NCBI GenBank assembly: GCA_028825475.1 | Contig: JAPKAB010000006.1 | Span: 1-64,000 of the forward strand | DNA from: Ascidiaceihabitans sp. | GTDB taxonomy: Bacteria > Pseudomonadota > Alphaproteobacteria > Rhodobacterales > Rhodobacteraceae | Direction: 5' to 3' | Length of the DNA stretch: 64,000 nt | Shown here: positions 2,443-55,438 of the stretch, piece by piece | Layout: the number at the start of each line of letters is the position of its first letter | How positions within the stretch are numbered: the stretch's first letter is position 1 | Notes under the pieces: generated by a model | What the model saw: only the letters and a program-made list of their open reading frames with translations | Told to the model about the DNA's origin: nothing | The model's database searches: none | Translations under genes and position numbers: made by a program

Positions 2443-2518
2443 TGGTGGAGCATAGCGGGATCGAACCGCTGACCTCCTGCATGCCATGCAGGCGCTCTCC
2501 CAGCTGAGCTAATGCCCC
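2443..2518 (-). tRNA. tRNA-Ala, anticodon GGC
   Basis: A 76-nt cloverleaf on the minus strand with an encoded CCA end. The acceptor stem GGGGCAT/ATGCTCC contains the G3-U70 wobble pair that specifies alanine. The anticodon stem CCTGC/GCAGG encloses ATGGCAT, giving anticodon GGC. The D arm and T arm are intact, with a TTCGATC T loop. Confidence 0.97.
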
Positions 2519-23470: not shown

Positions 23471-23917
23471 ATGTTGAATGTATATTTGTCAGGCGAAATT
23501 CACACCGACTGGCGTGAGCAAATCATTGAAGGCGCGGCTGAGTTGGCCGTGTCCTTTAGCGCACCGGTGACCGACCATGCCTCAAGCGATGATTGCGGTG
23601 TTGCGATTATGGGGGCTGAGGCGGACAAATTTTGGCATGACAACAAGGGTGCAAAGCTGAACGCCATTCGTACGCGCAAAGGTATCGAAGAAGCCGATGT
23701 TGTGGTTGTGCGTTTTGGCGACAAGTACAAACAGTGGAACGCGGCCTTTGATGCGGGTTATGCCGCCGCGCTGGGCAAGTCGTTGATCATCTTGCATCAG
23801 GACGAGCACCAGCATGCGTTAAAAGAAGTGGATGCGGCGGCGTTGGCCGTGGTCAAAGCGCCGGCGCAAGTGGTCCAGATCCTGAATTATGTTTTGACGG
23901 GTACGATTCCCGCCTAA
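23471..23917 (+). CDS. ytoQ: YtoQ family protein
   Basis: 148 residues. It begins MLNVYLSGEIHTDWR and contains HASSDDCG, FRxGDKYKQWNAAFDAG-like and LIILHQDEH segments, matching YtoQ, a small family related in fold to nucleoside 2-deoxyribosyltransferases. Activity of the family is not established. It follows pheT by 18 bp and is probably in the same transcript, ending at the hairpin near 23960. Confidence 0.88.
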   Translation: MLNVYLSGEIHTDWREQIIEGAAELAVSFSAPVTDHASSDDCGVAIMGAEADKFWHDNKGAKLNAIRTRKGIEEADVVVVRFGDKYKQWNAAFDAGYAAALGKSLIILHQDEHQHALKEVDAAALAVVKAPAQVVQILNYVLTGTIPA

Positions 23918-23959
23918 GTCGTGCGGCGCACTTCTTTTGGTTGAAAGGTAGCGACCACT

Positions 23960-23990
23960 CAATATCCATTGGGTATTGTGTATCTTTTTT
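23960..23990 (+). terminator. Probable terminator after pheT-ytoQ
   Basis: An 8-bp stem CAATATCC/GGGTATTG (one wobble) with an ATT loop; a run of six T follows after six bases. It is weaker than the other terminators in the window. Confidence 0.45.
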
Positions 23991-24034
23991 CCCCCCGAAA
24001 AAACTTTCGCGTCGATTCGAAATTGTGTTAGCAA

Positions 24035-24096
24035 GTCCCTCATAGACGAACGCCAAGTAAAGGCGACGGTCATAAAATTGTATGAGGGACACTCAA
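24035..24096 (+). promoter_or_regulatory. Predicted leader hairpin that covers the mscL ribosome-binding site
   Basis: GTCCCTCATA (24035-24044) is perfectly complementary to TATGAGGGAC (24081-24090), a 10-bp stem whose 3' arm contains the GAGGG Shine-Dalgarno sequence of mscL. Inside are two nested helices, GAC/GTC (45-47 with 69-71) and CGCC/GGCG (51-54 with 62-65), separated by a 3x3 internal loop and closed by AAGTAAA. A 9-nt A/U-rich bulge (72-80) completes it. The fold would hide the site until it is opened. A start upstream of 24035 is assumed. Confidence 0.6.
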
Positions 24097-24468
24097 ATGC
24101 TTAAAGAATTCAAAGACTTCATTAACAAAGGCAACGTCATGGATATGGCCGTTGGTATCATCATTGGTGCTGCGTTCACTGCGATCGTTGGTTCTTTGGT
24201 TGCTGACCTGATAAACCCGATCATCGGCATCTTCATGGGCGGCATAGATTTTGCTGGTTTGTCAGCAACAGTTGGCGAAGCTGAATTGACATATGGTAAC
24301 TTCATCATGGCGATCATCAACTTCTTGGTCATCGCGTTTGTAGTATTCATGTTGGTTCGTTCATTGAACAAAATGAAAAAAGCAGAAGAAGCAGCTCCAG
24401 CACCAGCGCCAGCTGGTCCAACACAAGAAGAGCTTTTGGCTGATATCTTGGCTGCTTTGAAGAAATAA
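24097..24468 (+). CDS. mscL: Large-conductance mechanosensitive channel
   Basis: 123 residues. The N-terminal amphipathic helix [22 protein letters not shown]1 with [11 protein letters not shown], a periplasmic loop, TM2 (about 68-90) and a C-terminal helix [13 protein letters not shown] are all typical of MscL. The homopentamer opens under membrane tension to release solutes in osmotic downshock. The start at 24097 is chosen for GAGGG eight bases upstream; an in-frame ATG at 24082 lies inside a predicted stem. An APAPAPAG linker precedes the C-terminal helix. Confidence 0.96.
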
Positions 24469-24517
24469 GCCTTAACGGTTTAAACTAATAATATCTGGCC
24501 GAAATCGGTCGACCTTG

Positions 24518-24549
24518 GGTCCGCAGTTTAATCGCTGCGGACCTTTTTT
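24518..24549 (+). terminator. Intrinsic terminator of mscL
   Basis: A perfect 9-bp stem GGTCCGCAG/CTGCGGACC with an 8-nt loop, followed by six T residues. Confidence 0.92.
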
Positions 24550-38133: not shown

Positions 38134-38218
38134 GGTGGGAATGTTTGCCCTCTCGTCGCATTCTACGAAAACAACTGGCGGGTCTCGCCTATAGCACTGT
38201 GTGCTTAAGGCTTGAGGT

Positions 38219-38313
38219 GAGAGATTGACAACGACCCAAACGGGACTCGTTACGGCTGCTTCCTTCCGGATCTGACCGGGTTGGCGAGGCGCTTGCCCGC
38301 GCCAACCTCTCGG
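38219..38313 (-). ncRNA. ffs: Signal recognition particle 4.5S RNA
   Basis: On the minus strand the conserved apical helix reads GGTCAGATCCGGAAGGAAGCAGCC, with a GGAA tetraloop and the asymmetric internal loop that binds Ffh. Flanking helices pair (CCTCG/CGAG, CGGG/CCCG, and the closing GAGAGGTTG/CAATCTCTC), giving about 95 nt. Ends are estimated from pairing. It lies next to dnaX and ypfJ; the Ffh protein gene is in the same window. Confidence 0.9.
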
Positions 38314-55361: not shown

Positions 55362-55438
55362 GGCGCGGTAGCTCAGTTGGTTAGAGCGATCGACTCATAA
55401 TCGATAGGTCGGGAGTTCAAGTCTCCCCCACGCCACCA
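55362..55438 (+). tRNA. tRNA-Met (elongator), anticodon CAT
   Basis: A 77-nt cloverleaf with encoded CCA. The anticodon stem ATCGA/TCGAT encloses CTCATAA, giving CAT. The T arm GGGAG-TTCAAGT-CTCCC is perfect. In the acceptor stem GGCGCGG/CCACGCC one pair is C5-A68, a mismatch. An isoleucine (lysidine) CAT tRNA is possible in principle, but the body looks like elongator Met. Confidence 0.9.

Follow-up and report, generated by a model that had tools for sequence, protein, structure and literature searches.

A putative leader stem-loop of mscL in Rhodobacteraceae and a lineage-specific stem over the Shine-Dalgarno sequence

The amount of MscL, the textbook pressure valve, that a cell produces affects its survival of osmotic downshock. 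Whether its synthesis is controlled through the leader of its message is a question raised by a stretch of DNA of 64,000 nucleotides from Ascidiaceihabitans sp. (GCA_028825475.1, JAPKAB010000006.1, positions 1-64,000, forward strand), which we refer to in full as the window. An initial annotation, made from the sequence, had proposed that the mscL leader hides its Shine-Dalgarno (SD) sequence in a 10-bp stem, forming a cis-acting switch whose opening might be brought about, for example, through heat, ions, crowding or a ligand. Is that stem a functional element, or does another part of the leader carry the signs of selection? The gene and the parts of its leader are:

24097 to 24468, forward strand: mscL coding sequence, 123 amino acids (open reading frame)
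24084 to 24088, forward strand: SD sequence GAGGG of mscL, 8 nt before the ATG at 24097
24035 to 24044, forward strand: 5′ arm of the 10-bp SD-covering stem, GTCCCTCATA, the perfect complement of 24081-24090
24081 to 24090, forward strand: 3′ arm of the SD-covering stem, TATGAGGGAC, which includes the SD (sequence and minimum free energy, MFE, fold)
24072 to 24080, forward strand: A/U-rich strand (3′ bulge) joining the inner hairpin to the SD arm, unpaired in the MFE fold
24045 to 24071, forward strand: inner hairpin (covariation in nine leaders of the genus; RNAalifold)
24045-24047 with 24069-24071, forward strand: P1 of the inner hairpin, GAC/GTC (sequence, MFE)
24051-24054 with 24062-24065, forward strand: P2 of the inner hairpin, CGCC/GGCG (sequence, MFE)
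between P1 and P2, forward strand: internal loop of the inner hairpin, GAA/ACG (sequence, MFE)
24055 to 24061, forward strand: apical loop AAGTAAA (sequence, MFE)

The start codon at 24097 is backed by relatives whose proteins align from residue 1. Another in-frame ATG, at 24082-24084 within the SD arm, would extend MscL by five residues; it has no SD of its own, and one congener (G006) reads ACG there. Beyond the 3′ end of mscL, a consensus scan found an intrinsic-terminator-like hairpin (24517-24544; 11 pairs, then a T-run), which fits a message ending after mscL. Elsewhere in the window, Rfam places an ordinary gene for bacterial small SRP RNA (38215-38312, reverse strand) and two ordinary tRNAs (2446-2518, reverse strand; 55362-55435, forward strand).

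Direct reading of 24035-24044 against 24081-24090 confirmed that the pairing is perfect over 10 bp, with GAGGG in the 3′ arm, and the two nested helices (P1 and P2) and A/U-rich bulge of the initial annotation were likewise borne out by sequence and MFE fold. The MFE structure of the 81 nt from 24030 to 24110 is the 10-bp stem with these helices nested inside it, at -24.6 kcal/mol (z = -5.1), and none of 200 shuffled sequences folded equally well. When folding was extended over 241 nt, z was only -1.2, with 26 of 200 shuffles equally good. A perfect SD-covering stem of at least 10 bp arose once in 4000 shuffles of the mscL leader and once among the 158 genes, each having an SD-like site, that served as controls. 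From this we infer a chance rate of about 2.5e-4 per gene, i.e., roughly one such stem per 3000-gene genome, so that the stem is striking and yet no proof of function.

The supposed opening by heat was not predicted, the SD pairing calculated for the window with ViennaRNA being 1.00 at 4, 15, 25 and 37°C. The 10-bp pairing does depend sharply on where the transcript begins, because predicted SD pairing falls from 1.00 with an assumed start at 24036 to 0.60 with a start at 24040. A start at 24038, which leaves 7 bp of the stem, gave 0.81, and starts at 24042 and at 24045 (where the whole 5′ arm is missing) gave 0.60 again.

The mscL gene, or its remains, was found in 10 of the 12 genomes of the genus (two incomplete ones, G002 and G011, yielded none), and the ten leaders were aligned. 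The 10-bp stem is perfect in two, the window and G003, and in G003 it precedes an mscL broken by a stop at codon 3. It is bulged in G001, where one G of the SD arm is lost; it has two mismatches (G-G and A-C) in G006, whose MscL is identical to that of the window; and it carries mismatches in G005 and G007, both with a broken mscL. In the four more distant congeners (G004, G008, G009 and G010) it is absent, the place of the 5′ arm being occupied by sequences resembling GTGCGCA, GTGTGCA or GTGCATT. The SD sequence GAGGG itself is retained in seven of the ten leaders; its place is taken by GAGGAC in G001, and by GAGAGA (G005) and GAGTTA (G007) ahead of the two broken genes. Over the ten leaders, 77.2% of the cells in the 10-bp stem were paired, compared with 75.1% in shuffles. 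Three of its pairs had changed on both sides, in one cell each, which was matched by 102 of 500 shuffles, and its covariation score was reached by 114 of 500. The stem is thus not conserved in the genus and its compensatory changes are no better than those of shuffled alignments; we reject it as a conserved element, and the claim that it forms a cis-acting switch is unsupported.

The window belongs to a species cluster of six members, in all of which the SD is predicted to be mostly closed (pairing 0.79-1.00 at 37°C). When the 5′ arm was left out, predicted pairing at 37°C fell to 0.41-0.60 in five of them, and was 0.86 in the sixth (G007). Because the SD is mostly closed in all six and this depends on the arm in five, a 5′ arm covering the SD at least partly is, on these predictions, a derived feature of the cluster that extends beyond one genome. 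The full 10-bp stem is found in only a few close genomes, and its distribution looks like that of a recent, lineage-specific quirk rather than a shared switch. Half of the six members carry a broken copy of the gene itself, with a stop at codon 3 (G003; leader L006), an internal deletion (G005; L111) or several stops (G007; L013), and mscL may be in the course of being lost in the lineage of the window.

The inner hairpin, which does not include the SD and is centered about 39 nt before the mscL ATG, behaved differently from the 10-bp stem. In the alignment of nine genus leaders (A3; G010 lies outside A3, although it is included in another alignment, A5), all 63 cells of its seven pairs formed standard pairs. 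Three of the seven had changed on both sides, which 18 of 500 shuffles reached, and the covariation score was reached by five of 500; structures slid along the same alignment paired 17-67% of their cells. RNAalifold returned the same seven pairs unprompted. The strands of the internal loop read GAA in eight of the nine rows and ACG in eight of the nine. Two further alignments, A2 and A4, which were misplaced or gappy, were kept out of the counts. The initial annotation was right that the leader is structured and its fold real, and part of that fold, the inner hairpin, covaries in the manner of a selected RNA; its view of the SD-hiding stem as the functional element found no support. The hairpin is followed by ATAAAATTG. 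An intrinsic terminator or attenuator was also considered and rejected, there being no U-run directly 3′ of the hairpin, which was not listed by the terminator scan.

A model built from the inner-hairpin alignment (R1) detected the leader of G010 (L025), which lies outside the model, with 26.5 bits (E = 0.00018) in a search of 99 sources. In that of L043 it gave a weak match (14.1 bits, E = 0.32), and a place off the leader in L057 scored higher (18.9 bits). Of the 394 genomes searched with R1, two belong to the genus and scored 76.6 and 52.1 bits; the others gave at most 23.4 bits. Among the 30 loci fetched, mscL adjoined the match in the window, in G004 and in G376 (there on the opposite strand). 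At E ≤ 1, the only place matched in the window's own genome was the mscL leader.

For the wider family, a training set was formed from 110 first loci by removing L031 (equal to L001), L013 (broken gene) and one leader shorter than 66 nt. The resulting 107 leaders include the window (L003), the broken-gene leader L006 and one from another family (L024); membership of the family was otherwise judged by kinship or by the titles of the records. A held-out set of 120 further leaders, with one genome per genus, was reduced to 110 by dropping 10 near-duplicates (leaders whose last 100 nt were more than 60% identical without gaps). The mscL gene was found in 325 of the 394 genomes; only the better MscL matches were listed and the held-out leaders were drawn among them, so that this set comes from closer MscL relatives. 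In the region from -66 to -15, which leaves out the SD, the mean folding z relative to dinucleotide shuffles was -0.76 in the 107 mscL leaders and -0.18 in 136 control leaders (Mann-Whitney p = 2e-5). The held-out leaders gave -0.89, compared with -0.44 for 45 stricter controls (p = 0.003); since the latter also fold somewhat better than shuffles, leaders in general share part of the effect. A center between -50 and -30 was seen for the best 30-nt hairpin in 58 of 107 training leaders and in 69 of 109 held-out leaders (the test used 90 nt, and L240 is truncated), whereas 46 of 130 controls had it there (Fisher p = 0.004 and 2e-5, respectively). Because the leaders are related, these p-values are optimistic, and the family-wide effect is modest in size. 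In the wider class, outside this family, 24 of 28 leaders were usable, with a mean z of -0.91 and the best hairpin between -50 and -30 in 13 of the 24, so that the trend may be wider than the family.

Six other leaders, from three Loktanella records, one Cognatiyoonia and two others, have a hairpin that is equally far from the ATG. They were picked by eye for having it; within them, all 54 cells were paired and six of nine pairs had changed on both sides, a result that none of 500 shuffles equaled. Covarying stems together with a recurrent 7-nt apical loop, CRNNAGA, were seen in L037, L038, L076, L080, L082 and L089 (CGTAGGA in L089). This loop with at least four closing pairs occurred in seven of the 107 training leaders, compared with 0.2 in shuffles. 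As a family trait it failed in the held-out sample, with none of 110 (one of 110 with a looser loop). Model R2 recovered its six seeds plus weak matches. Beyond the seeds, it placed a hairpin where expected in L076 (E = 3.7) and in one held-out leader, L202 (E = 1.2); these two matches are weak and lie among others off the leader. One of the two R2 searches covered 99 of the 110 held-out leaders, and the other left out L031 and L101-L110.

In the training leaders, the predicted probability that the SD is unpaired averaged 0.512, compared with 0.503 in shuffles, and 11 of 107 were unusually closed and three unusually open, which leans against an open SD. In the 110 held-out leaders the mean was 0.574, compared with 0.512 in shuffles, with 16 unusually open and six unusually closed. 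By these predictions, the SD is not in general hidden in mscL leaders of the family.

The position of the hairpin within the message depends on the promoter, for which the relevant features are:

24024 to 24031, forward strand: -10-like element TGTGTTAG (conservation of T[GA]TG[CT]TA in leaders)
23985 to 24004, forward strand: conserved upstream promoter element TTTTTTCCCCCCGAAAAAAC (conservation of TTTCCC in leaders)
23960 to 23978, forward strand: terminator-like hairpin after the upstream gene (consensus scan)

An E. coli-type consensus scan of the region found no promoter. Comparison of 216 leaders was more informative: TTTCCC occurred in 76, compared with 8.9 expected from shuffles, at a median of -104 (23985-23996 in the window), and GGGGAA in 49, at a median of -115. 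T[GA]TG[CT]TA occurred 33 times, 27 of them in the bin from -75 to -61, and TGTGCG, counted anywhere in the leader, was present in 55, at a median of -64. In many relatives the sequence seen in the window at 23985-24004, TTTTCCCC...AAAAAC (GGGGAA in other leaders), lies about 105-115 nt before mscL, a place where an activator or a -35 region would lie. TGTGCG(CA) stands right at the putative transcript start in, e.g., L080, L082, L089 and L035, and in the cluster of the window its place is taken by other bases, now the 5′ arm of the SD stem. These placements point to an mscL transcript start at about 24036-24040. The terminator-like hairpin at 23960-23978 fits the idea that mscL has a promoter of its own, but the evidence for it is weak, because the scan found three sites in the region where 1.0 was the chance mean.

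Comparison shows, at the level of sequence, that the inner stem-loop keeps its pairing within the genus while its bases change, and that a stem-loop tends to be similarly placed across the family. The reading that we favor, and think somewhat better than an even bet, is that mscL has its own promoter and a leader stem-loop of a generic kind, which serves the lifetime of the message and an open SD, and to which a lineage-specific SD stem has been added. Transcription would start near 24036-24040, and the short leader would carry the stem-loop at 24045-24071. As a transcribed hairpin close to the 5′ end, it would set the lifetime of the mRNA by hindering RNase attack that depends on that end, and, acting as a spacer, it may hold the leader in a fold of its own and thereby leave the gap with the SD open. 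In the cluster of the window, the first transcribed bases would have drifted into complementarity with the SD, creating an additional stem, at most 10 bp long, that is predicted to lower mscL translation constitutively. Among the observations that run counter to parts of this scheme, the SD is predicted to be mostly closed in all six cluster members, contrary to an open-SD role, and the CRNNAGA loop of one subclade is more what one would expect of a binding site than of a simple stabilizer. If the hairpin does set mRNA lifetime or translation, it is a control point on the amount of MscL. The locus also illustrates that an SD stem may catch the eye by its perfection in a single genome and yet be short-lived, beside a smaller helix that is truly selected.

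That subclade loop speaks for a reading that we consider unlikely, in which a regulator of mscL, either a protein or a small RNA, recognizes the inner stem-loop and binds to it. Its enrichment in the training leaders on covarying stems, and the retention of GAA and ACG in the internal loop of the genus, would be expected of such a site; the loop sequence, however, was absent from the held-out sample, and the single R1 match in the window's own genome, at the mscL leader, means that no regulon is seen. The inverted repeats might instead be DNA elements, an operator or initially transcribed promoter DNA, with the RNA fold incidental. The adjoining promoter sequences (TTTCCC, TGTTA/TGCTA, TGTGCG) are strongly placed, and TGCGCA is itself palindromic. 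We nevertheless judge this improbable, since the hairpin arms vary in sequence with pairing kept, a kind of change hardly to be expected in a DNA site read by its sequence, and the repeat contains an internal loop.

The SD stem could also be one neutral silencing step in a gene that is decaying in the species cluster, as three broken copies among its six members (the window counted) might suggest. Against such relaxed constraint, which we give little credence, the MscL proteins of the window, G001 and G006 are identical: their genes differ by 18 (window and G001), 19 (window and G006) and 10 (G001 and G006) synonymous codons and by no non-synonymous ones, so that the protein is still selected there. 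The same strong purifying selection, in three genomes where the SD is predicted to be closed, means that mscL must be translated somehow, and this could be held to favor a switch, in which the 10-bp stem blocks ribosome entry until heat, ions, crowding or a ligand opens it. So could the rarity of the stem among shuffles and the dependence of SD pairing on the 5′ arm in five cluster members. The selected mscL of G006 persists, however, without the full stem; the stem is perfect only in the window and G003; its two-sided changes were equaled by about a fifth of the shuffles; and no melting is predicted between 4 and 37°C. A functional switch is possible but without comparative support, and to our minds very unlikely. 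The broader proposal, that mscL mRNAs of Rhodobacteraceae carry a new cis-regulatory stem-loop, covarying and set at a constant distance from the ATG, and that its extension into a tight SD lock in the window's lineage gives translational control that senses a signal, is one on which we would place low odds.

How does this leader compare with known systems? None of the three Rfam matches in the window at gathering score (two tRNAs and the SRP RNA) is on the mscL leader, and 15 loci that contain mscL leaders gave no match. Scanning 23900-24200 by E-value returned three weak matches (E = 2.8-8.8), to unrelated families. Literature searches, with subscription papers mostly outside their reach, showed no title or abstract on an mscL leader RNA among the matches listed. 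ROSE and fourU are RNA thermometers that hide the SD. The window leader resembles them in that its SD is paired in a leader helix (a helix that is absent from G004 and G008-G010), but unlike theirs this helix is not conserved in the genus, is predicted to stay closed at 4-37°C and matches no described family in Rfam, and an RNA thermometer was rejected. With translational riboswitches it shares a leader structure overlapping the SD; unlike them, it has no demonstrated alternative pairing and no Rfam match, occurs at one place in its own genome, and has no sequence core found outside the genus. A riboswitch core across species was likewise rejected, R1 reaching at most 23.4 bits outside the genus and R2 yielding its seeds and weak matches.

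Stabilizing 5′ stem-loops are a further parallel, and the leader RNA is probably an ordinary stem-loop, one not described as far as we searched, with a role in mRNA lifetime or at the ribosome-binding site. According to PMC3997798, messages of Bacillus subtilis can be stabilized by a hairpin located at their 5′ end or close to it, more so than in E. coli, and sequestering the 5′ end leaves stability unchanged for E. coli rpsO and for lacZ messages made by T7; the E. coli cases ompA and papA are named there by title in the reference list. Unlike stabilizing 5′ stem-loops, the mscL hairpin would lie some 5-9 nt inside the putative 5′ end, and in the cluster of the window the SD is predicted to be closed. 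As in ompA and papA, it would be a small hairpin near the 5′ end, and it would be like a stabilizing stem-loop in that its pairing is kept while its sequence varies, with an SD that is usually open, by prediction, in the family.
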